DNA of 64,000 bases from Promicromonospora sp. AC04 (GTDB lineage: Bacteria; Actinomycetota; Actinomycetes; Actinomycetales; Cellulomonadaceae), in contig NZ_QBUG01000005.1 in assembly GCF_003058225.1 (NCBI RefSeq), positions 1 through 64,000 of the forward strand, in the 5' to 3' direction. Made by a program: the position numbers and the translations under genes. The notes beneath the pieces were generated by a model. That model made no database searches. It was not told the origin of the DNA and saw only the letters and a list, made by a program, of their open reading frames with translations. Positions 3,914 to 50,820 of the stretch are shown here, one piece after another. How positions within the stretch are numbered: the stretch's first letter is position 1; each line of letters begins with the position of its first letter.

Positions 3914-3973
3914 GCACCCATGGTGCGGGGCATTGGCCTTGTCATCCATGGCCAATTCCGCAACAGTGGCCCC

Positions 3974-25551: not shown

Positions 25552-25556
25552 GCCTG
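25528..25556 (+). other. attL core in glnA 3' end
   Basis: TTCGAGCTCTACTACGACAT plus CTA gives a 23-bp core identical to 50792-50814. One mismatch (A versus G, changing the stop codon from TAA to TAG) and a further identical GCCTG follow. The core encodes the final FELYYDI-stop of glutamine synthetase. Confidence 0.92.
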
Positions 25557-26711
25557 ATCGGCTAGATTCCGGGCTTTCGGGGCCTTCTTTGACCCCTTAG
25601 TCCACGAAGAGTCCACGCGAGCCGCAAGCACCTTCCCGGTGGCAGTTCGCGTGGACTCTTCTGTGTCCGGCCACAGGTGCGCGTAGGTGTCGAGTGTCGT
25701 CTTCGCACTCGCGTGCCGGAGGCGTGCCTGGACCACCTTCACGTCCGAGCCCTCGGAGATGAGCAGCGAGGCGTAGTAGTGCCTCAGGTCGTGGAACCGG
25801 AACTCGTCCGGCAGTCCCTTGACTCCCTCCCCCTCGGCGTCCTTGTACGTCGCGGCCAACCGAGCAGCGCGCACCGCTCGCTGGATCTGCCAAGGGCCGA
25901 CCTGCTCCCCCGCTTCGTCGGCGATCATCCACGCTGACGCTGGGCGCCCAACCATCGAGGCCGACAGCACCTCGATGAGTTCGCGCGCTACCGGGATGGG
26001 CGTCTTGGACTCGTCGGTCTTCAAGTCCTCAGCCGGGTACTGGACGGCCTGATTGATGATCGCCCGCAGGAAGTCAACATCCGCGACACGAAGACCGCAT
26101 ACCTCGGCAACCCGCAGTCCGGCGAACGCGCCCAGGAGGATCGCGGGCCGCAAGTGCTCAGGCATCGCGTCGTGCAGCGCCCACATCTGGTCCGTGGTCG
26201 CGATGAACGCCCGCTGCTTGCCGGACGGCGGAGCAGTGCGCCGCGAGCATGGATTGACCGGCAGGATGCCGTCCAAGACCGCGTCGGTAAGGATCTGCGA
26301 GAGCCGTGCGTGAAGCGCATAAACGTAGGACGCCTCGGCACCGCCATCCGCCAGCGCGCCGGTCCACGCCTTCACGTCCGAGGGCTTCAAATTCCGCAGC
26401 TTGCGCCCGCCGAAGGTTTCCTTGATCTTCGCGACGTGCGTGCGCGCCTGCCTGACCGTAGACGGCTTCTTGACCGCGTAGCCTTCGAGCCAGCGGTCGC
26501 ACCACTGGCCGACCGTCATTCGCGCGTTCTTCGGGTCCGTCCACTTACCCGTCCGAAGCGCTGTCTTCTGCTCGTCGATCCAGTCCTCGCCGTCCTTCTT
26601 CCGGTCATGGTGGGTTGTGTGCTGCTTGGGAACGCCCTTGTGCCGCTCGCAGCCTTCACACGTGAAGACTGCTCGCCACCTTCCACTAGGTCGCTTCGTG
26701 ACCGATGCCAT
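25548..26711 (-). CDS. int: Tyrosine recombinase/integrase
   Basis: The 387-residue protein has an N-terminal arm-binding region containing a Cys pair ([11 protein letters not shown]), a SAM-like core-binding domain ([21 protein letters not shown]) and a C-terminal catalytic domain. Catalytic residues are recognisable: Arg in [14 protein letters not shown] near 200, HxxR in [12 protein letters not shown], His in [11 protein letters not shown] and Tyr in LDTYAHLWP. It catalyses integration into glnA. Its last residues (QA-stop) are encoded by the att core and its stop overlaps glnA. It starts inside the upstream regulator gene (26-bp overlap), so the two are co-expressed. Confidence 0.95.
25599..25676. 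repeat. Left-end arm-type repeats and inverted repeat
   Basis: Direct repeats of AGTCCAC occur at 25599 and 25610, 11 bp apart. A perfect 15-bp inverted repeat (GAAGAGTCCACGCGA at 25606-25620 and its complement at 25647-25661) surrounds the following 26 bp. TGTCCGGCCACAG at 25664-25676 recurs at the right end. All lie within the 3' coding part of int. They are likely integrase or excisionase arm sites. Confidence 0.7.
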
Positions 26712-27896: not shown

Positions 27897-28005
27897 GCAC
27901 ACCTCAGGCAGTTGAGGAACGACGGCGCCGTTGGCGTTGGCACGTGCGGGCACTGTTGGCGTGCGGCTCGCTCACGCGGAATCGCGTCCGAGGTGGTGGC
28001 CGCTC

Positions 28006-31000
28006 ATGGCGGTGACGGTGCACGCGATGAGCGTGGGTGAAGGGACCGACTACCTGACCCGGTCGGTGGCCAACGCCGACCGCGACACTCCCAGCCCCGA
28101 GGGCGAGGGCCCCGGGATGGATCCGGTGATCGCGTACTACACCGAGACGGGCACCCCGCCCGGGTACTGGCTCGGACGCGGCATCGACGACCTCGGCGGC
28201 GGAGGCGCACTGGTGGCGGGTGACCGGGTGACCACGACGCAGCTCCAGCGTCTCCTGGACGCGGGCCGCGACCCAGTCACCACGGAACCCTTGGGCCGCG
28301 CGTACCCGAAGATCGTCCCGCTGGGCGAGCGGATCGAGAAGCGCACCGCCACCCTCGACCCCGGCCTGAGCCCGACCGAGCGGCAGGCCGCGGTGGACCA
28401 GATCACCCAGGACGAGCAGTGGGCCGGGAAACGCCACGCGGTAGGCGGGTTCGACCTGACCTTCTCGCCGATGAAGTCGGTCTCGGTCCTGTGGGGCCTG
28501 TCAGACCGCACCACCCAGGCCCTGATCCTGGGAGCGCACCGCGCCGCCGTGACCGAGACCCTCCGGTTCATCGAGGACCACGTAGCCGCCACCCGGACCG
28601 GCACCGATGCGGGAGACGGGTCGATCGCCCAGGTCGACGTCACCGGCCTGATCGCCACGGCGTTTGACCACTGGGACTCCCGAGCCCACGACCCGCAGCT
28701 GCACACGCACCTGGTGATAGCGAACAAGGTCCGCGCGGTGACCGACGGGAAATGGCGCACCCTGGACTCGCGGGCGCTGTTCAACGCGAACGTCGCGTTC
28801 AGCGAGCACTACGACGCGGTCCTTGCCGACCGGTTGACCGCCAGCCTCGGCGTCCAGTGGGAACGACGCCCCGCACGGGGCAAGAACCGCAACCCCGGGT
28901 TCGAGATCGTCGGGGTGAGTGACGAGCTGATCGAAGAGTTCTCGACCCGGTCGGCCGACATCGAACCCGCGACTGACAAGTTGATCGCGGAGTATCGGGA
29001 GAAGCACGGGCGGATGCCGTCGCGGGGCACGATCAACCGGCTGCGCGAGCAAGCGAATCTGGCCACGCGCCCGCCCAAGTCGATCGAGTCCCTGGCCGAC
29101 CTGTCCGCCCAGTGGCGCGACCGCGCCGCACGCATCCTGGGACAGGACCCCGGCCAGTGGGCGCGGGACCTGATCGCCAGGTCGGTGGACGAGCCGGGCC
29201 GGTCGTTCACCGCCCACGACGTCCCGAACGAGGTCATCGAGAAGGCGGCTGCTGTCGTGCTGCGCGTGGTCGGGGACAAGCGGGCCACCTGGAAGCACTG
29301 GCACCTCTGGGCCGAAGCCGAACGCCAGACCAAGCACTGGCGCCTGACTACCCACCACGACCGCGTCGAGACCGTGGCCCGGATCGTCGCCACCGCCGAA
29401 GGCGCCTCGGTCCTGCTGACGCCGCCGGAACTGGCCCCCACCCCGGACTTCCTGCTCCGGGCGGACGGCACCACCACACTGCGCCCCAAGCACTCCCAGG
29501 TCTTCACCTCGCAGGCCGTCCTGAACGCCGAGACCCGCCTCCTGGCGGCGATGATCGAGCGCACTGCACCCCACGTAGACACAAATGAGTTCCGGGCCGT
29601 GCTCGCCGAAGGCGTGCGGCAGGGCGTGCTGGACGCGTCCCAGGCCGAAGCCGTGATCGCCGTCGCAGGTTCGGGGCGGCGCCTGGACCTGCTGGTCGGA
29701 CCGGCCGGGACCGGGAAGACGACGACGCTGCGGGCGCTGCGGGCAATGTGGGAGCAGCAGCACGGCCCCGGCACCGTCGTGGGCCTCGCGCCGTCCGCAG
29801 CGGCGGCCGACGTCCTGGGCACGGAGCTGGGGATCGAGTGCGAGAACACTGCCATGTGGCTCACCCGCCACCGCCACGGCCGCGCCGAGTTCGAGGCGGG
29901 GCAACTGGTGATCGTGGACGAGGCATCCCTGGCCGGGACTCACACCCTGGACCGGATCACGAGGCTCGCGGCCGAGGCCGGCGCGAAGGTGCTCCTGGTC
30001 GGCGACCCCGCCCAGCTCCCCGCCGTCGAGACCGGCGGCGCCCTGAACCTCCTGGTCTCCGAACGCGCCCGCACCACCGAAGACGTCCCCACCCTGACCG
30101 ACGTCCACCGCTTCCACGCCGACTGGGAGAAGCACGCCACCCTGCGCCTGCGCGACGGCGACCCCGACGTCCTGAACCTCTACACCGACCACGGGCGCAT
30201 CCAGGCCGGGACTACCGACGACATGACCGACGCCGCCTACACCGCATGGAAGGCCGACACCCGGGCCGGACGCTCGTCGGTCCTGGTCGTGCCCGACAAC
30301 GCGACGATGAACGACCTCAACCGCCGCGCCCGCGCCGAACGCGTCCTGGCCGGACACGTCTCCGACGGCCGACACGTCCACCTCGCCGGACAGACCCGGG
30401 CGTCAGCCGGGGACCTGGTCATCACCCGGGACAACGACCGCCACCTCCGCTACGGGCGCGAGGGGTGGGTCCGCAACGGCGACCGCTGGAGGATCCTCCA
30501 CGTTCACCGGGACGGCTCGGTCACCGTGCAACGCGTCGACCTCGAACCACACACCAACCCGCGCCCCGACCGCGACGGCGCGCCGTCCTGGGGGATCGTC
30601 CGCCTGCCCGCCGCCTACGTGACCGAGCACGTCGACCTCGGGTACGCGATCACCGCACACCGCGCCCAGGGACTGACCGTCGACACCGCCCACACCGTCG
30701 CCAGCCCGACGATGAGCCGCGAGAACCTGTACGTCGCCCTCACCCGAGGCCGCACGACGAACACCGTGTTCGTCCCGGTCGACCAGCCCGACCGCGACCA
30801 CAACCACGAACACGCCATCGGAGCGGCGATCGACCCGGACATGCCCGAGCTGACCGCCGCGCGCGCCATGCTGGCGGGGATCCTGCACCGGGTCGGCGCC
30901 GAACCCTCCGCACACCAGTCCCGTCAGGACGAGGAACACCGCTGGGGATCGATCGCACAGCTCGCCGCCGAGTACGACACCATCGCCAGCCACGCCCAAC

Positions 31001-31650
31001 GCCCACACTGGACCCAACTGGTCGCGCACACCCTGGCCGGGGAAGGCTTCACCCGACGCGATATCGCCCAGGTCGTGGAGTCCGACGCGTTCGGGCCGCT
31101 ATGCGCCGAACTGCGCCGAGCCGAAGCCGACGGCCACGACGTGACCCGCCTGCTACCCCGGCTCGCCGCCGCCCGCAGCCTGCACGACGCCGACGACATC
31201 GCCGCCGTCCTGCACCACCGCCTCACCCACACTGCAACGCGCACATCCACCGTGCGGAACCGGATCGCTGGCCTCATCCCACAAGCCCAAGGACAGTTCC
31301 CCGACGACGTCCGCGAAGCCCTCGACCGCCGCGCCGAACTCATCGAGGACCGCGCCCGAACCCTCGCCGGGCAAGCCCTCCGCGACCGCCAACCCTGGAC
31401 CCGACACCTACCACCACGCCCCCACGGCCCCGCCGAGCGCGCATGGCAGAACACCGTCGCCGCCCTGGCCGCCTACCGCGACCGCTACGCGATCACGACG
31501 GACGACCCATTCGGCGAACCGCCCACCACGCTCACCCAACGCGACGACGCACGACGCATCCGCAATATGGTCCAAGACGTGGCAAGCACTGACCACGCGC
31601 CCAATCGGCGGACCATACTGGAACGCTCCACTGGTCCTGACCTCGGGTGA
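28006..31650 (+). CDS. MobF-family relaxase/helicase (TrwC/TraA-like)
   Basis: The 1214-residue protein starts at ATG 28006, after residues that do not fit the family. The N-terminal TrwC relaxase domain has the usual start (VTVHAMSVGEGTDYLTRSV) with candidate catalytic Tyr16. The metal-binding triad lies in HDPQLHTHLVIANKV near residue 230. The central helicase domain has Walker A GPAGTGKTTT near 565, Walker B LVIVDEASLAG and LLVGDPAQLPAVE. The RecD/UvrD-type end is GYAITAHRAQGLTVD and YVALTRGR. It nicks oriT and unwinds DNA for transfer. Its C-terminal region is duplicated as a decayed remnant at 34440-34775. Confidence 0.95.
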   Translation: MAVTVHAMSVGEGTDYLTRSVANADRDTPSPEGEGPGMDPVIAYYTETGTPPGYWLGRGIDDLGGGGALVAGDRVTTTQLQRLLDAGRDPVTTEPLGRAYPKIVPLGERIEKRTATLDPGLSPTERQAAVDQITQDEQWAGKRHAVGGFDLTFSPMKSVSVLWGLSDRTTQALILGAHRAAVTETLRFIEDHVAATRTGTDAGDGSIAQVDVTGLIATAFDHWDSRAHDPQLHTHLVIANKVRAVTDGKWRTLDSRALFNANVAFSEHYDAVLADRLTASLGVQWERRPARGKNRNPGFEIVGVSDELIEEFSTRSADIEPATDKLIAEYREKHGRMPSRGTINRLREQANLATRPPKSIESLADLSAQWRDRAARILGQDPGQWARDLIARSVDEPGRSFTAHDVPNEVIEKAAAVVLRVVGDKRATWKHWHLWAEAERQTKHWRLTTHHDRVETVARIVATAEGASVLLTPPELAPTPDFLLRADGTTTLRPKHSQVFTSQAVLNAETRLLAAMIERTAPHVDTNEFRAVLAEGVRQGVLDASQAEAVIAVAGSGRRLDLLVGPAGTGKTTTLRALRAMWEQQHGPGTVVGLAPSAAAADVLGTELGIECENTAMWLTRHRHGRAEFEAGQLVIVDEASLAGTHTLDRITRLAAEAGAKVLLVGDPAQLPAVETGGALNLLVSERARTTEDVPTLTDVHRFHADWEKHATLRLRDGDPDVLNLYTDHGRIQAGTTDDMTDAAYTAWKADTRAGRSSVLVVPDNATMNDLNRRARAERVLAGHVSDGRHVHLAGQTRASAGDLVITRDNDRHLRYGREGWVRNGDRWRILHVHRDGSVTVQRVDLEPHTNPRPDRDGAPSWGIVRLPAAYVTEHVDLGYAITAHRAQGLTVDTAHTVASPTMSRENLYVALTRGRTTNTVFVPVDQPDRDHNHEHAIGAAIDPDMPELTAARAMLAGILHRVGAEPSAHQSRQDEEHRWGSIAQLAAEYDTIASHAQRPHWTQLVAHTLAGEGFTRRDIAQVVESDAFGPLCAELRRAEADGHDVTRLLPRLAAARSLHDADDIAAVLHHRLTHTATRTSTVRNRIAGLIPQAQGQFPDDVREALDRRAELIEDRARTLAGQALRDRQPWTRHLPPRPHGPAERAWQNTVAALAAYRDRYAITTDDPFGEPPTTLTQRDDARRIRNMVQDVASTDHAPNRRTILERSTGPDLG

Positions 31651-34439: not shown

Positions 34440-34775
34440 ATGCTGGCATCGCCGCTGCACTCCGGCAGCAAGTCGAGCACGGCGCCACTCGCTCTATGGC
34501 TCGGGCGTCGAGCTGGATCGCCGGCCTCATCCCACGCGTCTTGAGCAAAGTCTCGGCGCTGTCCGCAAGCCTTCGAACGACGCGCTGAACGTATCGAGGA
34601 CCGCGCATGCCCTCGCCGAAACAAGGACTTCCGCGACCGCCGACCCCCGTCTCCGGCGAACGCGGATGGCAGAACACCGTCGTTGCCGCCGCCGCCTGTT
34701 GCGTCCGCCGCAGACAGCTAGTTGGGCAACACGCCCAACACTCTCACTCAACGCGACGACGCCCGTCGGCTCATG
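34440..34775 (+). pseudogene. Decayed C-terminal remnant of a second relaxase
   Basis: Stretches match the relaxase 3' end in the same order. GCCTCATCCCAC corresponds to 31271, ATCGAGGACCGCGC to 31342, CCGCGACCGCC to 31380, ATGGCAGAACACCGTCG to 31443 and CAACGCGACGACGC to 31537. Frame-breaking insertions and deletions and stops between them preclude a protein. The remnant has diverged from the intact copy, so it came from a related but different relaxase or is old. It lies on the far side of the Septu genes from the intact relaxase. Confidence 0.85.
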
Positions 34776-34894: not shown

Positions 34895-35938
34895 TCAGCC
34901 GAAGACGGTCTCGCGAAATTGGTCGCGGAGGGTGGCGAGGGGTTCGCGGTCCCGGGTGTAGTAGAGCTTGTTGGTCAGCAGTACGGCCCACCGGTCCTGC
35001 TTCGGGTTCAGCCACATGGCGGTGCCGGTGAAGCCGTAGTGTGTCCAACTCTGGTCAGCGGGGTCGGTGCCGGGAGCTGGGTGCCAGAACAGGCCCCGTG
35101 CCGGTTCCAGGCTGCCGGTGTGGACGTTGAGGGACTCGCGCGTCCAGTCGGGGCCGAAGCCCGGAGGCGTCGCGGCGGTGCCGGGATCCAGCAGGTAGCG
35201 CAGCAGCACGGTGAGGTCGTCGAGGGTGGAGAACGCTCCGGCGATGCCGCACACGCCGCCGAGGAGGCGGGCGGAGAAGTCGTGAGCGATGCCCTTGAGG
35301 TGTGTGCCGGTCTCCTCGTCGAGTTCGGTTGGGGCGCAGCGCGCGACCGTTGCCGTCGGCAGAGGTCCATAGCGGGTCTCCCGCATGCCGAGCGGGCTCC
35401 AGACACGGTCGGTGGCGAGATGGTCCAGCGGCTCGCCGCTGAGGTACTCGGCGAGGTAGCCGAGGATGAGTGCGGCACGGTCGGTGTACTCCACGGCCTG
35501 GCTCGGTGGGCGGTGCAACGCCTCGTGCAGGACACCGCTTCGGATGGCGTCATGGTTGGTGCCGTAGAGGTTCTTGAGTTGGGCGCGCAGCGGTAGCCCA
35601 GCGGTGTGGGTGAGGAGCTGGTGGGCATTCACCTGGCCGAGCGGGTATCCGGCGACGTCAGGCCAGAACTGGCCGAGAGGCTCGTCGAGGTCCAGGTGGT
35701 TGTCCTGCCAGAGGGTCCCGATGGTGCTCCAGACGGCGAGGATCTTGGTGAGGCTCGCGACGTCGAACACGGTGTCCGGCGTCATGGGCTCGTCGGAACG
35801 TGTCGGGTCCAGGAGGCCGGTGGTGCCGCGGTCGATCACGCCGTCCGCGTTGCCGACGGCCCACACTGCACCGGGGTAGACGCCGTCGTTGACTCCTGCG
35901 GTCACCAGGCCGTGGAGGTGTTCGGTGGTGGAGGGCAT
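34895..35938 (-). CDS. Serine hydrolase (class C beta-lactamase/PBP4*-like)
   Basis: The 347-residue protein has the SxxK catalytic motif SLTK at 62-65, a Tyr-based second motif YTD at 151-153, and HYGFTGT near 300 in place of KTG. This is the pattern of class C beta-lactamase-like esterases and D-Ala peptidases. No signal peptide is visible, so it probably acts in the cytoplasm. It is 79 bp downstream of the glycosyltransferase on the same strand and ends the operon. Possible roles are acyl transfer or hydrolysis of the pathway product, or resistance. Substrate unknown. Confidence 0.85.
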   Translation of the reverse strand: MPSTTEHLHGLVTAGVNDGVYPGAVWAVGNADGVIDRGTTGLLDPTRSDEPMTPDTVFDVASLTKILAVWSTIGTLWQDNHLDLDEPLGQFWPDVAGYPLGQVNAHQLLTHTAGLPLRAQLKNLYGTNHDAIRSGVLHEALHRPPSQAVEYTDRAALILGYLAEYLSGEPLDHLATDRVWSPLGMRETRYGPLPTATVARCAPTELDEETGTHLKGIAHDFSARLLGGVCGIAGAFSTLDDLTVLLRYLLDPGTAATPPGFGPDWTRESLNVHTGSLEPARGLFWHPAPGTDPADQSWTHYGFTGTAMWLNPKQDRWAVLLTNKLYYTRDREPLATLRDQFRETVFG

Positions 35939-36017
35939 CGGTTCCTCTGCTTCGTGGGATAGGCCGTCCTGGTCAGCGTAGGGGCGGTAAGGACGGCATA
36001 GCTGGATCTGTCTGTGG

Positions 36018-37103
36018 TCAGGAGAGGCTGTCGCCGAGGTGACTCAACGAGGCGGCGGCAGCGGACAAGGGGAATCGAGCGGCGTTGGCGCGGGCGGCAG
36101 CTCGGAGGTCGTCGGCCAGGCCGGACACCGCGAGGTGACGCAGGTTGGCCGCGACGTGGTTCGGGTCGGTGAAGCCGGTGGGCAGGGCGGCCTCGCCGAG
36201 CGTCTCGTCGAGTCCAGGCACGGGTTGGTAGAGCACGGGAAGTCCGCAGGCTTGCGCTTCGAGGGCGACCAGGCCCATGGCCTCCAGGGTGGTGGAGGGC
36301 ATGAGCAGCGCGTCATGGTCCGCAAATGCCTTCCACAGTTCAGGCCGAGGAAGCCACCCGAGGTAGTGAACGTCGAGCCCGGCCCGGTGCAGGGCAGGCC
36401 GGAGCGCCCGGAACTCGTGGGGCGGCGCGGCGATGCTGAGCGTGAAGTTCGTGGCCACTCCGAGGGCTTGGGTGAGGCGGTCGGCGCCCTTCTCGGGCGT
36501 CAGCCTGCCCGCGTACAGGAGTCGTTGCCTGCCCTCCGGGGACGAGCGTCGTGGAGGCGGTCCGGCGAGGAGGTGGTCGGGGATGCCCCAGGGGATCTTC
36601 ACGACCCGGGCGGCGTCGGGGGCGAGCGTGCGGAGGCGGTCTGCCATCGCGGAGGTGGGTACGACGATCGCGTCCGCGCGACGGACCGTGTCGCGTAGGA
36701 CTCGCAGTTGGTCGGGGTGGGTCTCGGCGAAGAGCAAGTCGGTCCCGTGGACCAGGGCAATCGTCGGATGGTCCGGGAGCGTTCGCAGGAGCGCCGGAGT
36801 GGCACCGAAGGTGAGGTGTTGCAGGTGGAGGACGTCGACATCCTCGGGGTCGAGCACATCGGCCAGGGCGCGGTGCAGTGCCGTGACGTACTGCGTGAAG
36901 CCGGGCTCGTCGATGCACTTGCCGTCGACCGCGAGCAGGTCCAGACCCGGCACGGCTGAGGGCCCGTTGTGGACGGCGTCGAGCATGAATGCTCGTGCAG
37001 GGATGAGCGGCTCGGTACCGGTGTACAGGTCGCGGAACAGTTCCACGCTGCCGCCGGGGCTCGCGGCGGGTAGGTCGAGGAAGGTCGCCACACGAGCGGT
37101 CAT
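36018..37103 (-). CDS. GT4-family glycosyltransferase
   Basis: The 361-residue protein has a GT-B fold. The N-terminal domain includes VLHLQHLTFGATPALL and VPTSAMADRLRTL. The C-terminal donor domain has LLYAGRLTPEKGADRL and the GT4 E-x7-E pattern in MPSTTLEAMGLVALEAQACG. It would transfer a sugar from a nucleotide donor; the acceptor is unknown. ATG 37103 overlaps the preceding deaminase-like gene stop by 4 bp, so it is coupled to the nucleotide-enzyme block. No membrane segment is visible. Confidence 0.88.
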   Translation of the reverse strand: MTARVATFLDLPAASPGGSVELFRDLYTGTEPLIPARAFMLDAVHNGPSAVPGLDLLAVDGKCIDEPGFTQYVTALHRALADVLDPEDVDVLHLQHLTFGATPALLRTLPDHPTIALVHGTDLLFAETHPDQLRVLRDTVRRADAIVVPTSAMADRLRTLAPDAARVVKIPWGIPDHLLAGPPPRRSSPEGRQRLLYAGRLTPEKGADRLTQALGVATNFTLSIAAPPHEFRALRPALHRAGLDVHYLGWLPRPELWKAFADHDALLMPSTTLEAMGLVALEAQACGLPVLYQPVPGLDETLGEAALPTGFTDPNHVAANLRHLAVSGLADDLRAAARANAARFPLSAAAASLSHLGDSLS

Positions 37104-37636
37104 GAGGTGCCCTCCTGGAACTCTTCGTGGAGCCGGGAGATGTCGATGCCGTCGGTGGAGGTGTACTTGCGGCCGAGCTGCTGGTAGCTGGCCGTTGGCC
37201 CATAGGTGCGCAGGAAGATCAACTTGCCGAACGTCATCCCGGGGTAGACACGAACGGGTCTGACGGCGCGGATCTCCAGCGTCCAGCGGATCGCGTGCCC
37301 GACATGGCCCAGGGGCGCGGAGACATGGACCCAGATACCGAGGCAACCGGTGACACGGTCGCCGTTGAGCATCTGGGCGTACCTGTCAGATGCCGTCCGC
37401 TCCAGGGTCACCCCGAGGTACAGGACCCCGGGCTCCAGGACGTACCCCGACTCGGGGATAGTGACCTCGGTGAACGGCGTTGGTATGGCGGCGTCCAGGT
37501 CCGTCGTGCAGACCCGAAGGGTGGATCCGAGTCGCCAGTCGTACGCGTTCGCGGACAGCCGGTCCGGGTCGAACGGATCGATGGTGATGTCCCCGGCTGC
37601 TATGGCTGTGGCGATGGCGGGGCCGGTCAGGATCAT
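37100..37636 (-). CDS. dCTP deaminase-fold protein B (retains Glu, lost Ser/Arg motif)
   Basis: The 178-residue protein has the Dcd/dUTPase fold order: MILTGPAIA, SANAYDWRLGSTLRV, YVLEPGVLYLGVTLE, and PGMTFGKLIFLRTYGP. At the conserved Dcd motif GRSSxxRxG the sequence is GDRVTGCLG (92-100), so both Ser and both Arg positions are changed. The catalytic Glu position is kept (WTLEI, Glu121). The nucleotide-binding KYxxQxG end is altered to KYTSTDG. It overlaps both neighbours by 4 bp. Alone it should not be an active deaminase; pairing with protein A is suggested. Confidence 0.85.
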   Translation of the reverse strand: MILTGPAIATAIAAGDITIDPFDPDRLSANAYDWRLGSTLRVCTTDLDAAIPTPFTEVTIPESGYVLEPGVLYLGVTLERTASDRYAQMLNGDRVTGCLGIWVHVSAPLGHVGHAIRWTLEIRAVRPVRVYPGMTFGKLIFLRTYGPTASYQQLGRKYTSTDGIDISRLHEEFQEGTS

Positions 37637-38166
37637 GAGGCCGCCGAGTGGGGGATGTCGTGCCAGTAGCGTGAGGCCTGCGGTCCCTGCGCTGCCTGGT
37701 ACTTGCCCGCGTACAACTCGAGCGGGCCGGCGGCGACGAAGAACATGATCTGTCCGATCTTCATCCCGGCGTAGACGCGCAGGGGGCGCGTGGGGGCGAG
37801 CATGAGGGTCCACTGGCCGTGGAAGCCGATGTCGCCGATCGGAGCGGTGATCTCCACGAAAAGACCGAGCCGCCCGACGGAGGACCGTCCGAACAGCAGC
37901 GGCACGAACACATCCGAGCCGACCTCCTCCAGCGTGTGCCCGAGGTACAGCTCGTTCGGCTGCAGAACGTACCCCTTCGGACCCATCTCGATGGTGGACG
38001 TCGGGTTCGGCCGATGCGCATCGATCACCGGGTCCACGTACGTCATCAGGGTTGGGCCGAGGCGCACGTTGTAGCTGTTCGGGTTGACCTGCGCGGGCTC
38101 GAACGGCGTGACCCGCAACCGCCCGTCGCGCACTGATGCGGTGATCTCGGGACCGGTAAGGATCAT
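37633..38166 (-). CDS. dCTP deaminase-fold protein A (retains Ser/Arg motif, lost Glu)
   Basis: The 177-residue paralogue of the next gene also begins MILTGP. It keeps the Dcd substrate motif GRSSVGRLG (93-101) and the triphosphate-side motif KYQAAQG (155-161). The catalytic Glu found in Dcd (VLEF in E. coli) is replaced by Met122 in WTLML. Spacing otherwise matches E. coli Dcd closely, including PNSYNVRLG and RVYAGMKIGQIMFF. It overlaps protein B and the metallophosphoesterase by 4 bp each. Nucleotide binding is likely; deamination by this chain alone is unlikely. Confidence 0.87.
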   Translation of the reverse strand: MILTGPEITASVRDGRLRVTPFEPAQVNPNSYNVRLGPTLMTYVDPVIDAHRPNPTSTIEMGPKGYVLQPNELYLGHTLEEVGSDVFVPLLFGRSSVGRLGLFVEITAPIGDIGFHGQWTLMLAPTRPLRVYAGMKIGQIMFFVAAGPLELYAGKYQAAQGPQASRYWHDIPHSAAS

Positions 38167-39368
38167 GGCGTTACCTCCTGGCAGAGGACATGACGGACGG
38201 CCTGGCTGAGTTCGAGAACTGTCGTGGGCGGACCTTCAAGGGGAAGCGTCTCGGCGAGGTAGTCCGTGGTCAGGACGGTGCTCACCCGACCGCCGGCCCG
38301 GTCGGGTTCGACGACCAAGGGACCGGCCCTCTCCGCGAACTCAGCGAGCAGCGCTGAGAGATCTACCTCGGGCTCGACTCGGGCATGCACGATGCGATTG
38401 CCGAACGGCTCGATGGCCAACAGGTTGTCGGCGGTCAGTGCCTGCCCGAGATGAACCTGTCGCAGCGCGGACTCGTTGAGGATCGCCACGGCAGACGGCG
38501 CGCTCCTTGGAAGCCATCTGGCGACCTGTTCGAGCACGGCCATGCGGTCAAGGGCGCGGCCTCTCCAGCGGTGATCGAGCGGGCCGATACGTGTCGTCAA
38601 CTGGTCGCGGAGTAATTCGATCTGGCGGCCGAAAGACTCCAACGCTGCCGGAACCGTGTCGGTGGGTTCGAACCGAGCGGTACGCGCGTCCCAACCGCTC
38701 CCGGCTGGTGCAGCGGTCGAGAACCCGGACGCGAGTTCAGCCCCCTTGACGACGACGGTTGAGCCGACCCGCTCGGGTCCGTGACGTTCGCTGTGGCAGT
38801 GGCCTGCGAAGATGACGTCGAGGAACGGGCAAGCTTCGGCGAGGCGGAGGTCTTGCTCGAAGCCGGAGTGCGACAGCAGCACCCACGCGTCGACCTCATG
38901 ACGGTGCTTCTGCCACACGTCCGTGAGCGCGACGGCAGGGTCGATGACGCGGTGCCCAGAGCGTTCGCTCACAGGGATCGCCGTGAACGCCTGCACGCCG
39001 ATGACGGCGGTCACCGCTACCCGCTGTCCGCCGATTGTCGTCCGGTGCAGGCCGCGGAACAGTGTCTCGCCGCTCGACCCCTCGACGACGTTGGCGCACA
39101 CGGTCATCTCGCGCAGGCCAGGCTGCAGATGGTGACGCCAGCCGTGGTTGCCCGGGACGAAGACGTCGTAGAGCGAGACCAGGATCTCCGTCTCGATCCG
39201 GCCCTGGCCGAGACGGTAGTAGCCGGTCCCCTCGAAGAAGTCCCCGCAGTCCACGACCAGAGCGTTGCGCCGTGCACGGTGCAGCCCAGCGAGCAACGGC
39301 CCGACCCCGCCGAGCTGAGAGTGCACGTCGGTCGTCGCCACGATCCGCTCCAGGACGCGTTCGCTCAT
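38163..39368 (-). CDS. Metallophosphoesterase / 5'-nucleotidase-like
   Basis: The 401-residue protein has the calcineurin-like motif series: TTDVHSQ (Asp14, His16), VDCGDFFEG, PGNHGW, LLSHSGF and AGHCHSE. A C-terminal 5'-nucleotidase-like domain follows (LNESALRQVHLGQALTADNLLAIEPFGN). Bacterial relatives (UshA type) remove phosphate from nucleotides or cleave UDP-sugars, usually in the periplasm. No signal peptide is seen here, so action in the cytoplasm is likely. It overlaps the MurA-like gene and deaminase-like gene A by 4 bp each. Hydrolysis of a nucleotide intermediate is a reasonable inference. Confidence 0.87.
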   Translation of the reverse strand: MSERVLERIVATTDVHSQLGGVGPLLAGLHRARRNALVVDCGDFFEGTGYYRLGQGRIETEILVSLYDVFVPGNHGWRHHLQPGLREMTVCANVVEGSSGETLFRGLHRTTIGGQRVAVTAVIGVQAFTAIPVSERSGHRVIDPAVALTDVWQKHRHEVDAWVLLSHSGFEQDLRLAEACPFLDVIFAGHCHSERHGPERVGSTVVVKGAELASGFSTAAPAGSGWDARTARFEPTDTVPAALESFGRQIELLRDQLTTRIGPLDHRWRGRALDRMAVLEQVARWLPRSAPSAVAILNESALRQVHLGQALTADNLLAIEPFGNRIVHARVEPEVDLSALLAEFAERAGPLVVEPDRAGGRVSTVLTTDYLAETLPLEGPPTTVLELSQAVRHVLCQEVTP

Positions 39369-40705
39369 AGGAGCTCCTGGAGGTCTGCGCCCAGCGCACG
39401 GAGCTTGCCGGGCAGGTCGGCGTGGCCACGCCGAAGCTGCGCCAGCCCGGTCACCGTCGTCTCGCCGTGGGCGGCCAAGGCCGCGACCAGCAGGGCCGAA
39501 CCCGTCCGGATGTCCGTGGCCTCCGCAGTTCCTCCCACCAGATGCTGCGGTCCGGTCAAGCGGGCTGTCGTCGCGGTCAGCGGCTCAATGTCCGCACCCA
39601 GGTGAGCGAGTTGCGCCAACAGGTTTCCGTGCCGCCCGGGGTTGATCGAATCGCCGAACTCATGCATGCCGGGCAACCCAAGCGCCAGGGCCATCAGCGC
39701 CGGTTCGAAGTCGGCGTCCAAGCCCTCCGGGTCCAGGGACGCGCTCACTCGCAGACCGTGGCCGCCCCGCTCACCACCGTCGAGAACGGCGAGCGCGTCG
39801 TTCTCGACGTCGACATGAACGCCGACGCCGTTGAGGAGCAGCCCGACGTACTGGATGTCACGACCCGTGACTCCCTCGACGCGCCCGCTGCCGCCCGTGG
39901 CCGCGATCGCGCACGCCAGCGTGCCTGCCTCGATCTTGTCTCCGGGGACCAGCCACGACACCGGATGGGCATTGGTCTCGTGCGGCGGGGCCATCCGGAG
40001 GCGGGAAGCGAGTAGATCGATGTGCCAGCCGGCGGAGCGCAGACCATCGAGGGTGCCTGTGAACTCCGGGGAGAGATTCGGGTTGCCCAGTTCCAGCCGC
40101 ACACGTCCCACGACGGCGCGGAGCACGGCCACGACGCTCGCGCCCCGGGAACGGAACGGGAGATCTATCGTCACCTGGTCCGGGGTCTCCCGCGCCGTTA
40201 CGTGGTAGCCGCTGGCGTCAAGCTCGACCGTGTCACCGAATGCGGCGTAGACGTCGAAGTGCAGGTCCATGCCGCGATCCCCGATCCGGCAGCCACCAGG
40301 CCAGGGCAAGTCGGCACGACCATGGGCCGCCAGGAGCGCGGGCACCAGGTAGTACGACGCCCGGATGGTCCCAGCGAGATCCAGCCCTCCAAGACGGCGC
40401 TCTGACGCCAGGCGCACGGTCACGGACTGCTGATCGTCCGGTGCACGGTCAACTCGAAAGCCAGCGTGCTCCAGGAGCGTGAGCATCACGCTCACATCCG
40501 CGCTCGACGGGATGTTCGACACCTGCACCGGCCCTTCGGTGACCGCAGCACAGGCGAGCAGCGGGAGTGCCGCGTTCTTCGAGCCATCCACTCGGACCCT
40601 GCCCGACAAACGATGCCCGGGACGAACGACGACAGCGGCTGTCTGTGCGCCGCCCCAGCCGCGGGCTCGCAGAGAGTGCTCAGTCATGTTCGCGATCTCG
40701 CTCAC
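39365..40705 (-). CDS. MurA/NikO-like enolpyruvyl transferase
   Basis: The 446-residue protein starts at GTG 40705 behind GGGGAG; ATG 40687 is an internal alternative. It has the two-domain EPT fold and keeps the MurA reaction residues: Lys43-Asn44 in DGSKNAALPLL, Cys139 and Arg144 in PGGCRIGDRGMDLH, and an acidic DADFEP in the Asp305 region. It should transfer enolpyruvate from PEP to a nucleotide-linked hydroxyl. Both UDP-GlcNAc (as MurA) and a plain nucleotide (as UMP in nikkomycin biosynthesis) are possible. Its place among nucleotide enzymes favours the latter. It leads the five-gene chain with 4-bp overlaps. Confidence 0.85.
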   Translation of the reverse strand: MSEIANMTEHSLRARGWGGAQTAAVVVRPGHRLSGRVRVDGSKNAALPLLACAAVTEGPVQVSNIPSSADVSVMLTLLEHAGFRVDRAPDDQQSVTVRLASERRLGGLDLAGTIRASYYLVPALLAAHGRADLPWPGGCRIGDRGMDLHFDVYAAFGDTVELDASGYHVTARETPDQVTIDLPFRSRGASVVAVLRAVVGRVRLELGNPNLSPEFTGTLDGLRSAGWHIDLLASRLRMAPPHETNAHPVSWLVPGDKIEAGTLACAIAATGGSGRVEGVTGRDIQYVGLLLNGVGVHVDVENDALAVLDGGERGGHGLRVSASLDPEGLDADFEPALMALALGLPGMHEFGDSINPGRHGNLLAQLAHLGADIEPLTATTARLTGPQHLVGGTAEATDIRTGSALLVAALAAHGETTVTGLAQLRRGHADLPGKLRALGADLQELL

Positions 40706-40751
40706 AGTTCTCCCCTGGTCGGGAACTTCGCGGAGTTGCACGGCAGGCCAT
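40680..40751 (-). CDS. Candidate 23-residue leader ORF overlapping MurA-like start
   Basis: ATG 40751 follows a strong AAGGGGAG site at 5-bp spacing. The frame reads MACRATPRSSRPGENCERDR and three more residues before TGA 40680-40682. It overlaps the start of the MurA-like gene in another frame. Ribosomes leaving it would terminate near ATG 40687, so a translational-coupling leader is possible. It could equally be chance. Confidence 0.3.
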   Translation of the reverse strand: MACRATPRSSRPGENCERDREHD

Positions 40752-40789
40752 GGTGGCTCCCCTTCGGGTGTGCGGAGTGTTCTCAGGGC

Positions 40790-40823
40790 GGCTGAGGCTC
40801 CCGGGAGGTCGGGAGCCTCAGCC
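40790..40823 (-). terminator. Perfect 14-bp hairpin between HAD gene and MurA-like operon
   Basis: GGCTGAGGCTCCCG (40790-40803) and CGGGAGCCTCAGCC (40810-40823) pair perfectly around a 6-nt loop, 75 bp after the HAD gene stop. It can terminate HAD transcription or attenuate read-through into the core operon. No T-tract follows on the minus strand. Confidence 0.7.
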
Positions 40824-40897
40824 TGGGGTCCGCCGTCTGGGGGCGGCTCGCGGCCAGGTCGGGGCAGAATCGGCCGCAAGATCGAGGGGTCAGGTCT

Positions 40898-42028
40898 CTA
40901 CAGATCGCTCAGGGGCAGTTCGAAGCCCGCCGGGCCGTTCCCATTGACGCTGCGCCACTGGGCGCGTCGGCGGCCCTCGTCCCCACGCGGGAACGGCAAG
41001 CCCGCCTCCAGTGCTGCGGTCTCGATCGCGCGCATGGTGATACCTACGCCGGATGGGATTGGAGCGTGCCTGACCCATTGACCGGCTTGGAGCGTCCATG
41101 CCTCGCAACGGGACAGGTCGGGTCCCGTGCCGTGCCACACCCGCAGGACCACGGGGCCCGGTGCACTGGCCTCGGCAGTAGCGATCTGCGCGGCCACCGG
41201 TGGCAACGAGCTGTCCACGTCCGGGACGAGCGAGCGCAGCACCGGCAGCACCCCGCTATCCGCGATGGTGCCGGTCGTCTCGTCGGCGGCGCTGCGGACG
41301 ATCGCGGGCGCGTGCCCCATCGCGACCGAGCGCCCGGCCCACTCCAGCATGGTCAAATCGTTGATGCCGTCCCCGACCGCAACAGTGCAGTCGGCGGGGA
41401 TACGCAGATGCTTGCGTATGTCGTCGAGTGCGACCGCTTTGTTCACGTCCAGCGCCGTTATGTCGGCCCAGTCGGCGCCCATCGGCGCGACCGTGACACC
41501 GGTCGCGGCCAGCGCGTCGGTGTATCGGCGGATGCCCGGTCCGGCGAGCACGATCCGGGTAGCAGGCTGTGCCGTCAGGTCGTCCAGCAGAGCGAGCTTC
41601 TGCTGCCCGTTGAGTTCCCCCGGCTCGAACGGCGTGCCCGTACGCCAGCCCCAGCCGACCTCTTCCACCGCGACCCGCACCGCCGGAACCAGGTCCATGG
41701 CGCGGCGGATCACCGGCCCGGGGTCGAACGTGCGGGCGGCAACGACGTCATACCCCGACGGCGCGGCCGGGTCCAGCCGTACGGTCACAGCGCCGTTGGA
41801 ACCGACCGCCCACCCATCGGTGAGCCCCAGCCGCACCGCGATCGGGATGAGCCCGGGCAACGATCGCCCCGAGGAGAGCACCACCTTGTGTCCTGCGGCG
41901 CGGACCAGGTCCAGAGCCCCCACGGTTCCGGATGGCACCTTCCCGTCGACGTCGAGGAGCGTCCCGTCGATGTCGAGGGCGACGAGACGGCGAACTGTGG
42001 TGTGGGTGCTGGTGGGGCGTGATGTCAC
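40898..42028 (-). CDS. HAD-IIB (Cof-type) phosphatase with C-terminal extension
   Basis: The 376-residue product starts at GTG 42028. HAD motifs are clear: I DIDGTLLD, II LSSGRS, III Lys in LDVNKAVALDD, IV VGDGINDLTML. The Cof-type cap lies between II and III. About 90 extra residues follow the HAD fold (VVLRVWHGTGPDLSRCEAWT...) and match no domain I know. Family members dephosphorylate sugar phosphates and nucleotides, including PLP and FMN precursors. It precedes the core operon by 192 bp with a hairpin between, so the coupling is looser. Confidence 0.87.
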   Translation of the reverse strand: MTSRPTSTHTTVRRLVALDIDGTLLDVDGKVPSGTVGALDLVRAAGHKVVLSSGRSLPGLIPIAVRLGLTDGWAVGSNGAVTVRLDPAAPSGYDVVAARTFDPGPVIRRAMDLVPAVRVAVEEVGWGWRTGTPFEPGELNGQQKLALLDDLTAQPATRIVLAGPGIRRYTDALAATGVTVAPMGADWADITALDVNKAVALDDIRKHLRIPADCTVAVGDGINDLTMLEWAGRSVAMGHAPAIVRSAADETTGTIADSGVLPVLRSLVPDVDSSLPPVAAQIATAEASAPGPVVLRVWHGTGPDLSRCEAWTLQAGQWVRHAPIPSGVGITMRAIETAALEAGLPFPRGDEGRRRAQWRSVNGNGPAGFELPLSDL

Positions 42029-42099
42029 TGTTCCACTTCTCACTGACGGGTGTCCTGGGCGCTCTTGAACGTGCGGCAAGCGGCTCATTTCCGGTGCCC

Positions 42100-42420
42100 T
42101 CACTGGAGGAGTCCTACGGGCTGGCGAAGCACGGATCGGATCTGGACTTCGAGCCCGTCGACGATTCCGGTCCACAACGTGTGTCCGGGGACGAACATCC
42201 GATGATCCAGAGGGAAGTCGCACCCGACGGCCCGAGCGATCTGCTCGCCCTCGGCGAGGTCCGCAGGATGCAGGCAGATGCGGTCACTGGTGAAGGTGAC
42301 CAGCTCGATCCGACCCATGCCGATGTCCGCCATCAGACGCGCGGCCACGGCGAGCGCGTGACCGATCGTTGCTCCGGCGTCTGTGCTGGTGTTCGTGTCG
42401 AACGAGTTCAACGTGATCAC
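42100..42420 (-). CDS. Small protein of unknown function at head of operon
   Basis: The 106-residue product starts at GTG 42420 behind AAAGGA. It reads as a single alpha/beta domain (IGHALAVAARLMADIGMGRIELV, FTSDRICLHPADLAEGEQI) without a recognised motif or signal. It is 71 bp upstream of the HAD gene and divergent from the HTH-TPR regulator at 42579. It is probably the first gene of the regulated unit. Function cannot be assigned. Confidence 0.65.
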   Translation of the reverse strand: MITLNSFDTNTSTDAGATIGHALAVAARLMADIGMGRIELVTFTSDRICLHPADLAEGEQIARAVGCDFPLDHRMFVPGHTLWTGIVDGLEVQIRSVLRQPVGLLQ

Positions 42421-42578
42421 CGTCCTTTCTTGCCCCGGCTGAGGGGTGCCGTGTAGCCAAGGACCACTGTTGCTGGCGCGGCGCACCGTGGGAGGGGCAG
42501 ACTGGGCGGCAGACTGGAGACCTGGGTCGGGCAGGAGCCGATCACCACACGGGATGCTTGGGAGGGGGTGGGGCAGCG

Positions 42579-43757
42579 GTGGCGACCCCCAACGAGCGTC
42601 TTCGGCGGCTCCGCACCGAGAAGCCTTCCCTCGCCGATCCGGCGCGGCCCATGAGCCGCGCCGAACTTGCCGAGCTGGTGAACCTGCACCTCTGGAGGAC
42701 GACCGGTCGTCGCGCCGCCCTCGACGCAGACGCGATATCCCGGTACGAACGCGGGATCGTCAACTGGCCCAGCAAGACTTACCGGGCCGCCTTCCGTGCG
42801 GTGCTCGACGTGACGACCGACGCCGAGTTGGGCTTCTACCCGAGCCCACGCGGACCGAAGGCGCGACCGGACACAGCCGATGACGACATCATGGGCTGGC
42901 TCCAGCGCGCGTCGTCCGTCGACCAGACGACCATCACGACCATGGCGGCCCGGACGGAGGATATCCGCCTAGGTGACCGCGGACAGTCCAGCGTGGCGAC
43001 GAGCCAAGCGCTCAAGGAGCACTTGGACGTCCTGTGGTCGCTGCGCGCATACAGCCTGGAACCGTCGATGCGCGAGGTACTGGCGAGCGTCTACAGCGAT
43101 ACCGCGTCGTTGGCCGGCTGGGTGTATCTGGACAGCGGGAACATCAAGGAAGCCTGGCGCTTGCATGAGGCGGCGAAGGACGCTGGTCGCGAGAGTTCGG
43201 CCAGGGCGGATCTCGCGCACGCCACCGCGCAACAGGCCTACGTCCTCGTAGATACGGATCAGCCCCAGTACGCGCTGCGCATTGCGGAGCACGCAATCAC
43301 CGTCGGCGCCACGGCGCTATCCGGTCCAGTGCGGTCCTGGCTCCACGGGGTTGCGGGCGAGGTCGCCGCAATTGTTGGCGAGACGACCGCGAGCATGGAA
43401 CATTTCGACCGGGCCGTAGCCCTACTGTCGGGCGACACGCGCGACCCGGACGCGCCTTACATCATGCTCGACGAATACAGCCTCGCCCGCTGGCGCGGAG
43501 CAGCACTCGCCCGCCTCGGCGACGAAGAAGCTATCGCCGACCTGCACTTCGCCCTGAGCGGCATGGATCCCAACCACCTACGCGCCGGGGCCCAGCTCAA
43601 CGTGGATCTCGCGCATTCCCTCGTCGCGGCAGGCCACACGCCAGAAGCTGTGCAGGCGCTTGACACGGCTCGCGGGCTTGCTAAACGAGCCGGATCGGCG
43701 CGGCAGAAACGCCGAATCAAGAACCTTCAGTCACGTCTAGGCGTCCAGGCCAGCTAG
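42579..43757 (+). CDS. HTH-TPR transcriptional regulator
   Basis: The 392-residue product starts at GTG 42579, 9 bp after GGAGGGGG. The N-terminus contains an XRE-like HTH (PMSRAELAELVNLHLW, ALDADAISRYERGIVNWPS). About 280 helical residues follow with TPR-like pairs (GWVYLDSGNIKEAWRLHEAA, ATAQQAYVLVDTDQPQYALRIAEHA). This design is common for actinobacterial regulators that sense a peptide or small molecule. It is divergent from the small protein and HAD operon across about 158 bp, making it the likely local regulator. It overlaps the convergent Nudix gene by 21 bp. Confidence 0.88.
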   Translation: MATPNERLRRLRTEKPSLADPARPMSRAELAELVNLHLWRTTGRRAALDADAISRYERGIVNWPSKTYRAAFRAVLDVTTDAELGFYPSPRGPKARPDTADDDIMGWLQRASSVDQTTITTMAARTEDIRLGDRGQSSVATSQALKEHLDVLWSLRAYSLEPSMREVLASVYSDTASLAGWVYLDSGNIKEAWRLHEAAKDAGRESSARADLAHATAQQAYVLVDTDQPQYALRIAEHAITVGATALSGPVRSWLHGVAGEVAAIVGETTASMEHFDRAVALLSGDTRDPDAPYIMLDEYSLARWRGAALARLGDEEAIADLHFALSGMDPNHLRAGAQLNVDLAHSLVAAGHTPEAVQALDTARGLAKRAGSARQKRRIKNLQSRLGVQAS

Positions 43758-44297
43758 GACCGCCAGAAGCCCGACGAGCGTTCCAGAGCCCAGCACCTCT
43801 CTGGCCCGGATCAGCTCTGCAATTCGCGTCAGGGAAACCCACTCGACTACGGCCGCTTCTTCGGCGTCCGTCGGTTCACCGATCTGCTCGGCGCCGTGGA
43901 AGACGAAGACCTCGTGCGGGGTATCCACCATCCCCGGCATCGGCTGAAAGCCTGCGACCGGGCGTCCCTCGCCCCGGGGCTTCCAGCCCGTCTCCTCGAT
44001 GGTCTCCCGGACCGCAGCGACGTGTGTCGACTCGTCATGCCCAACGATGCCGCCTGGAGCGTCCCATCCGATCTGGTGAGTGGCGAAGCGGTGACGCCGC
44101 AGCAGCAGCACGTGTTCGCGCGCGTCATCCAGGACGATGGCGGTGGACACGGTCTGGAGTCGCACCACGTGGTGCCAGAACCGTCGGCCGTCGGGCGGTT
44201 CGATCTCCACCTGCACAAGCCGGACCCAGGGGTTGTCGTAGAGCAACCGCTCGCCGAACACTCGGGTCAGCGGCACACCGGCATCGTCGTCGCTCAC
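43737..44297 (-). CDS. Nudix hydrolase
   Basis: The 186-residue product starts at GTG 44297 (VSDDDAGVPL); an in-frame ATG at 44318 would add seven residues. The Nudix box is GGIVGHDESTHVAAVRETIE followed by ETGW, with the expected Glu pair. The fold around it (VRLQTVSTAIVLDD, HEVFVFHGAE) is that of ADP-sugar or nucleoside-diphosphate hydrolases. Nudix genes next to regulators recur in actinobacterial integrative elements. Removal of a nucleotide signal or intermediate is a plausible role. Confidence 0.9.
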   Translation of the reverse strand: MSDDDAGVPLTRVFGERLLYDNPWVRLVQVEIEPPDGRRFWHHVVRLQTVSTAIVLDDAREHVLLLRRHRFATHQIGWDAPGGIVGHDESTHVAAVRETIEETGWKPRGEGRPVAGFQPMPGMVDTPHEVFVFHGAEQIGEPTDAEEAAVVEWVSLTRIAELIRAREVLGSGTLVGLLAVLAGLDA

Positions 44298-50703: not shown

Positions 50704-50791
50704 CCCGAATCGACCGGCACTGGCCAACGCAGAAACCGCTAGATTCCAACGATCCCAACGTGACCAGCACCGGCCGTCTGCCAGGTCCGAC

Positions 50792-50820
50792 TTCGAGCTC
50801 TACTACGACATCTAGGCCTG
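50792..50820 (+). other. attR core
   Basis: The 23-bp core is identical to attL, followed by G in place of A and the same GCCTG. It encodes FELYYDI followed by TAG and has no ORF upstream, so it is a partial copy of the glnA 3' end. The minus-strand stop of the ATP-grasp gene lies within it. Confidence 0.92.

Follow-up and report, generated by a model that had tools for sequence, protein, structure and literature searches.

The window analysed here is a stretch of 64,000 nucleotides from Promicromonospora sp. AC04 (NCBI RefSeq assembly GCF_003058225.1, contig NZ_QBUG01000005.1, positions 1 to 64,000). On its minus strand, at positions 34895-40705, lies a core of six genes, hereafter called the cassette. 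The first gene (39365..40705) encodes an enolpyruvyl transferase (EPT) of the MurA/EPSP superfamily (PF00275, E 6.9e-34) which forms a family of its own; its probable start is either the GTG at 40705, preceded by GGGGAG, or the ATG at 40687. It is followed by a two-domain 5'-nucleotidase-type metallophosphoesterase (MPE, 38163..39368; PF00149 and an AlphaFold2 model) and by two subunits with the fold of deoxycytidine triphosphate (dCTP) deaminase, named Dcd1 (37633..38166) and Dcd2 (37100..37636, probable start at 37636), both of which match PF22769 and were placed by tree in classes B and A, respectively. The last two genes encode a GT4 glycosyltransferase with an intact E..E donor motif (36018..37103, probable start at 37103; PF00534, PF13692) and a serine hydrolase or acyltransferase with the class C beta-lactamase fold (34895..35938; PF00144).

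All genes named in an earlier prediction made from the letters of the window alone (the sequence-only reading) were found, and its four ATGA overlaps were verified at 39365-39368, 38163-38166, 37633-37636 and 37100-37103. The GT4 and serine hydrolase genes are separated by 79 bp, and about 190 bp lie between a HAD phosphatase gene and the EPT gene. Since these gaps bound the overlaps, EPT-MPE-Dcd1-Dcd2-GT4 is the coupled block, with the hydrolase gene trailing. Both the existence of the operon and its conservation are confirmed, but its boundaries had been drawn too wide, the core comprising only the six genes.

Conservation and apparent mobility of the cassette

Conservation was assessed on 80 loci, the best 80 of 173 relatives retrieved from the genome collection with the EPT profile; loci L003-L031 were excluded from these counts. 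All six genes were found in the same order and on one strand in 71 of the 80 loci. Contig ends cut seven others, and most of the cassette is absent from two (L077 and L109) despite sufficient room. The count records a match to each gene and not its intactness, and it includes L081 though the Dcd genes of this locus are damaged. The six-gene arrangement is far beyond chance, and uniqueness to this genome, one of the two outcomes which the sequence-only reading had named as fatal to it, did not materialise. The hosts are mostly Streptomyces, with further cassettes in Kitasatospora, Streptacidiphilus, Actinacidiphila, Microtetraspora, Kribbella and Promicromonospora.

The overlaps of stop and start (ATGA or GTGA) recur at the EPT/MPE (74/74), MPE/Dcd1 (62/74), Dcd1/Dcd2 (70/72) and Dcd2/GT4 (67/67) junctions, and at 4/69 of the GT4/serine hydrolase junctions. 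Median identity to the window proteins is 78% for Dcd1, 72% for Dcd2, 68% for the serine hydrolase, 62% for GT4, 57% for EPT and 51% for MPE. Ortholog rows with a coverage below 75% or with inner stops were dropped, as was the Dcd2 row of L094, which is actually a Dcd1. When 200 genomes were drawn from one family, 17 proved to contain the EPT; across the class it was detected in five of 296 sampled genomes, two of these five being MurA-like matches at 32% and one the window's own. Literature searches, with most subscription journals outside their coverage, returned no paper on the cassette or on paired Dcd genes.

The cassette resides in an element of 25.3 kb bounded by 33-nt direct att repeats. 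The first copy, attL (25524..25556, plus strand), is located at the 3' end of a glutamine synthetase gene; the second, attR (50788..50820, plus strand), is identical at 31 of 33 positions, for which no match was expected in 100 shuffles. A tyrosine integrase (25548..26711, minus strand; PF00589), a TrwC-type relaxase/helicase (27931..31650, plus strand; PF08751), a Septu-like pair, the cassette, a DUF4379 protein and an nSTAND NTPase are encoded between the repeats. The G+C content of the element is 66.1%, compared with 71.7 and 71.6% in the flanks. Integrase, relaxase and att repeats at a gene end, the features by which integrative mobilizable or conjugative elements are defined, are thus all present, and the region looks like an integrative element that is apparently mobile.

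Five families of mobility genes were compared, and one or more of them was found in 43 of the 80 EPT loci and in none of 20 regions of other operon types, a comparison that favours the EPT loci, as the queries were taken from them. The sets of mobility genes beside the cassette differ between loci. Among plasmid records, 13 EPT matches were obtained, of which one is a cassette EPT (57%); it belongs to Streptomyces sp. NBC_00161, whose plasmid carries all six genes together with the upstream set. A search of viral contigs gave 12 pattern matches and no true relative of the EPT. Because the cassette looks mobile and occurs in only part of the sampled family, strains with and without it should be comparable.

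Complementary residues in the Dcd pair

By sequence, Dcd1 and Dcd2 belong to the same family as dCTP deaminase and the bifunctional DCD-DUT enzymes (TIGR02274; PDB 2qxx, 1xs1, 4xjc). Dcd1 has kept the RSS..R motif, the motif-3 aspartate and KYQ, with RSS..R and the aspartate present in 76/76 rows. At the position which we take to be E138 of the E. coli enzyme, it carries M in 75 and Q in one of these rows. Dcd2 shows the catalytic glutamate in 73/73 rows, a histidine replacing the motif-3 aspartate in 73/73, and loss of RSS..R. Against a TIGR02274 cut-off of 92.8 bits, Dcd1 passes with 101.6 whereas Dcd2 stays below with 56.2. The genome encodes a separate Dcd scoring 213.4 bits and, in agreement with the tree described below, the cassette proteins do not group with housekeeping dcd. 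The description of two dCTP-deaminase-fold proteins given by the sequence-only reading was thus right about the fold, but it overlooked that each protein holds one half of the catalytic residues.

The same division was found in 42 paired proteins, a set in which the EPT type accounts for 22: 21/21 of class A have the glutamate and lack the aspartate, and 21/21 of class B have the aspartate and lack the glutamate. Both catalytic residues are present in 6/6 unpaired Dcd proteins; in this set of 42 and six, L116 and L130 are close relatives. A later test on 20 further regions yielded 39 Dcd sequences (pieces of up to 110 residues were dropped), of which 20 belong to class B, 19 to class A and none to another type, with one A and one B per region except in L173, where only B lies within the stretch. 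A chain with both the glutamate and the motif-3 aspartate was found neither among the 42 paired proteins (0/42) nor in the later regions (0/39). These regions were hand-picked from non-EPT matches of the class B profile, a choice that may pass over complete single Dcd genes; some of them may come from the plasmid strains, and L167, L168 and L172 are nearly identical. As the search profile was that of class B, class B was expected in all 20. What the test adds is that 19/19 partners found fall into class A, with both residues in none of the sequences.

In the tree, the members of class A form one clade (98/94), and a branch with 89/85 support divides the six unpaired rows from the 42 paired ones. 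These data are most simply read as a single duplication after which the two copies lost complementary residues, and the two paralogs would therefore form an obligate heteromer. Dcd active sites are located at intersubunit clefts (PMC4827122), and dCTP deaminases are homotrimers (PMC10733785), whereas the cassette has two paralogs with complementary catalytic subsets.

The damaged locus L081 was considered as a natural Dcd1-Dcd2 chimera and rejected, since the reading frame shifts at the junction. Plasmids of Paenibacillus (L117) and Aneurinibacillus (L119) encode a compact single Dcd which is 44% identical to Dcd1 and has all catalytic residues; it is a possible model of the unsplit ancestor.

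The pair also occurs outside EPT operons. A search of plasmid records with Dcd1 gave 19 records, ten of which carry the pair in another context at 41-51% identity, and 51 of 345 genomes from the family gave a match to the class B profile. At least five other operon types, all biosynthetic-looking, contain the pair, their gene families being read from one or two representatives each. Type II combines a methyltransferase-like protein, an MPE homologue, TauD, DcdA, DcdB, PIG-L, WbqC, GT4 and an aminoacyl-tRNA synthetase (aaRS)-like protein; its TauD gave two marginal matches only to solved structures. In type III the pair is accompanied by a P-loop kinase, a CDA-like protein, a methyltransferase, an NTP-transferase or epimerase, a radical SAM or Gfo/Idh protein, a GT4-type protein and a HAD protein. 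A Rhizobium operon encodes the pair with a methyltransferase, a kinase-CDA protein and a Nudix protein. Type V displays a DcdB fused to a PPDK_N/phosphoenolpyruvate (PEP)-utiliser, together with a nucleotide pyrophosphatase-type phosphodiesterase, DUF6001 and a class III aminotransferase, and type VI consists of a P450, the pair, a class II aaRS-like protein, a methyltransferase and a class I lysyl-tRNA synthetase (LysRS).

Like the cassette, plasmid operons of Streptomyces sp. NBC_00239, pFRL6 and Nonomuraea sp. NBC_00507 contain a Dcd A/B pair and a GT4-type gene. The NBC_00239 operon encodes homologues of the cassette MPE (30%) and GT4 (37%), while the glycosyltransferases of pFRL6 and Nonomuraea are weakly similar to the cassette GT4. 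TauD, aaRS-like, radical SAM or methyltransferase genes stand in place of the EPT and serine hydrolase genes. From their gene content, the pair-bearing operons look like small-molecule operons with a common entry enzyme. The odds seem about even for the following reading: a single duplication gave two paralogs, both of which then lost a portion of the active site; together they make up a split dCTP-deaminase-like enzyme, and an as yet undescribed class of nucleoside-type small-molecule pathways, spread over actinobacteria and some rhizobia, uses this enzyme as its common entry point. The cassette of the window would be the mobile EPT member of that class. If true, paired Dcd genes would be a simple genome-mining tag for nucleoside pathways with differing tailoring (EPT, TauD, P450, radical SAM, PPDK-like), and the pair would offer a clear example from nature of duplicated genes whose active sites decayed in complementary ways.

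Two groups of regions deserve mention in their own right. Chromosomal fusions of class B Dcd with PPDK_N/PEP-utiliser were seen in L167-L173 (domains read in L169), with the phosphodiesterase, DUF6001 and aminotransferase in several of them; judged by their genes, these operons would represent another pathway. In L181, L182, L184, L185 and L186, a P450, the Dcd pair, a class II aaRS-like protein and a methyltransferase are encoded together, and four of the five also have a class I LysRS gene, which perhaps confers self-resistance to a LysRS-directed product.

Proposed pathway and alternative explanations

The EPT is distinct from the housekeeping enzyme, as it reaches 231.2 bits on TIGR01072 (cut-off 392.7), against 427.7 bits for the separate MurA of the same genome, and 14 EPT rows are split from seven MurA-like rows with a support of 100/100. 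Eleven of 12 checked positions are invariant in 81/81 rows, among them what we take to be the equivalents of MurA K22, N23, R91, C115, R120, D305 and R397. The residue following the S162-type serine is R in 81/81 EPT rows, compared with V in five and T in one of the six MurA-like rows shown. Among solved structures, the EPT profile matched MurA with up to 218 bits and NikO (4fqd) with 130 bits.

The AlphaFold2 model of MPE (pLDDT 89) has its best PDB matches in 5'-nucleotidases with cytidine and uridine (E 1.2e-24, TM 0.73, 16-17% identity). The two-domain fold and the metal ligands, which define 5'-nucleotidases such as UshA, CD73 and E. coli c4898, were both found, the ligands being invariant in 75/75 rows; with 401 residues, however, MPE is shorter than the members of this family (about 500 or more). 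No signal peptide was recognised by eye, no predictor having been run. In GT4 the residues R, K, E and E are conserved in 70/70 rows. Its top fold matches are MshA, sucrose-phosphate synthase and BshA; fold and donor motif are shared with MshA and BshA, but identity is only about 20%. The SxxK, Y and HxG motifs of the serine hydrolase are invariant in 71/71 rows.

We propose, with a probability of roughly 0.55, that the cassette is a mobile small-molecule operon leading to a glycosylated, enolpyruvylated pyrimidine nucleoside. The proposal builds on the gene order and its conservation, the retained catalytic residues, the complementary loss in the Dcd pair, the nucleotidase fold of the MPE model and the signs of mobility; the heteromer, the substrates, the order of steps and the product are inferred. 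Dcd1 and Dcd2 would assemble into one mixed trimer which would convert (d)CTP or a close relative to a (d)uridine nucleotide; in its shared active site, the catalytic glutamate would come from Dcd2 and the residues that bind the triphosphate from Dcd1. With PEP as donor, the EPT would then place an enolpyruvyl group on one of the hydroxyls of this nucleotide, in the manner of NikO/PolA with uridine monophosphate (UMP). MPE would remove the 5'-phosphate from the enolpyruvyl nucleotide, GT4 would add a sugar from a nucleoside diphosphate sugar, and the serine hydrolase would form or cleave an ester or amide. The divergent regulator would control the operon, and the element would serve as carrier only.

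A precedent is found in polyoxin biosynthesis, for which PMC5365060 reports that PolA/NikO makes 3'-enolpyruvyl-UMP and that the phosphatase PolJ alone converts it to 3'-enolpyruvyl-uridine in vitro. The nikkomycin/polyoxin entry (NikO/PolA, PolH, PolJ) shares with the cassette a phosphatase and a MurA-like EPT, which in the cassette would likewise act on a nucleotide. By analogy, the translational coupling of EPT and MPE suggests a short version of this route. The Dcd pair, GT4 and the serine hydrolase are extra in the cassette, and by profile score its EPT is no closer to NikO than to MurA. A nucleoside small-molecule pathway, one of the two explanations left open by the sequence-only reading, is thus favoured because of the nucleotidase fold of MPE, the polyoxin example of EPT with phosphatase and the occurrence of the Dcd pair in operons with tailoring genes; the other, defence, is little supported, as no core protein (0/6) was recognised by PADLOC and the defence-like neighbours recur in 0/80 other loci.

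Several points weigh against the nucleoside pathway. The EPT position aligned with what we take to be MurA D123 varies (E in 59/81 rows), and as MurA structures outscore NikO, UMP as acceptor has no backing from sequence closeness. EPT-type Dcd2 still has the K of KYQ in 73/73 rows, and class B is grouped on one side of its branch with a weak support of 53/39. The assignment of residues to chains in the mixed trimer is by analogy to dUTPases, where a single active site takes its glutamate from one chain and its phosphate-binding residues from the adjacent one. GT4 and the serine hydrolase are generic folds, and neither an exporter nor a self-resistance gene was recognised among recurrent neighbours, of which ten representatives were scanned. 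Finally, in the polyoxin pathway PolH, a radical SAM enzyme, works on the enolpyruvyl nucleotide ahead of PolJ (PMC5365060), and the six-gene core has no radical SAM gene.

An anti-phage or anti-plasmid module, which would make a nucleotide analogue or deplete the nucleotide pool on infection, is an unlikely alternative. The cassette is apparently mobile cargo and in the window lies near the Septu-like AAA/HNH pair and the nSTAND NTPase; GT4 scores 38.4 on PF20706 'GT4-conflict' (cut-off 26), though below other GT models, and the lack of a recognised transporter would fit a product acting inside the cell. Of ten proteins scanned with PADLOC, however, the Nudix protein alone gave a match, and a weak one (E 2.9e-6). 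Homologues of the Septu-like pair and of the nSTAND NTPase were found in 0/80 other loci each, and the family matches of the core include no effector, nuclease or sensor.

Just as doubtful is a signalling module, in which a nucleoside-type autoregulator would be read by the divergent helix-turn-helix (HTH) regulator and would time development or transfer. The window regulator (42558..43757, plus strand), the probable controller of the operon, had rightly been announced as a divergent HTH-TPR protein and is now placed in the NsdA family (NF053720, 112.6 bits, cut-off 75). This affiliation favours a signal, and so does the recurrence of a homologue of either of two XRE regulator kinds in 73/80 loci (XRE-TPR in 61/80, the DUF5753 XRE gene in 12/80), of a flavoprotein in 62/80 and of a HATPase in 60/80; in 63/67 loci, the gene of the TPR kind was predicted on the other strand from EPT. 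The kind present in the window, though, is not conserved with the core: among the 80 loci it is matched in L032 alone, and there in part, with a 28% match in one further genome (L009/L024), and in Streptomyces its position is occupied by other regulator families. The six enzymes are constant while the regulator family is swapped between lineages, so that no fixed pairing of ligand and receptor is preserved; moreover, the cassette stands beside varying mobility genes and once on a plasmid. A signalling role is less likely than the nucleoside pathway.

Least likely is a cell-wall role or a bypass of MurA, where the EPT would act on UDP-GlcNAc or another sugar nucleotide, yielding an altered envelope precursor or making the cell tolerant of MurA inhibitors: the MurA residues listed above are kept and MurA is the nearest relative among solved structures, but the score far below the cut-off, the separate clade, the arginine after the S162-type serine and the absence of MurB-like or other wall genes from the family matches of the core argue against it.

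Neighbouring genes in the window and at other loci

Upstream of the EPT gene, the window encodes on the minus strand a HAD-IIB phosphatase (40898..42103, starting at the GTG at 42103 or further in; PF08282) and a small protein (42100..42420) whose gene overlaps the HAD gene by GTGA if the latter starts at 42103. A scan of 42100-42486 gave no Pfam or NCBIfam match for the small protein. Both are lineage-specific neighbours, and a Nudix gene is located beyond the regulator, on the upstream side of the cassette. Within the flanks examined, the HAD and small protein genes were matched in one of the 80 loci (L032, Promicromonospora) and the Nudix gene in none. With this near-absent recurrence, the HAD, small protein, regulator and Nudix genes fall outside the conserved core, and the HAD, small protein and Nudix genes, which the sequence-only reading had described as flanking the block, were rejected as pathway members (1/80, 1/80 and 0/80).

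The Septu-like AAA ATPase and HNH-type pair (31698-34048, minus strand) is located between the relaxase gene and the cassette; it was identified by PDC-M01A (367.8 bits), PtuA (274 bits) and PDC-M01B. Beyond it, sequence from the 3' end of the gene for the TrwC relaxase (31316-31556) recurs in three stretches at 34567-34768 with 77-85% identity. This looks like a relaxase remnant, as if the pair had been inserted by recombination between relaxase copies. Near attR, the nSTAND NTPase of 806 residues (47446-49866, minus strand; PF25199) gave no PADLOC match and is a possible undescribed defence gene. A DUF4379 zinc-finger protein of 607 residues (45281-47104, minus strand) has matches to HNH endonuclease families of phages as well (best E 5e-15).

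At other loci, genes near the cassette were named by eye. The cassette stands beside hemL-like genes in L045, L052, L057, L059, L067, L072, L081, L082, L086, L087, L103 and L107; the same 12 cassettes are mostly also near resA/ccdA/ccsB-like genes, some with an integrase, and this neighbourhood suggests a preferred insertion site in Streptomyces. In L022, two diaminopimelate-epimerase-like genes (477-1553 and 3675-4673, minus strand) are located a few kb from the cassette.

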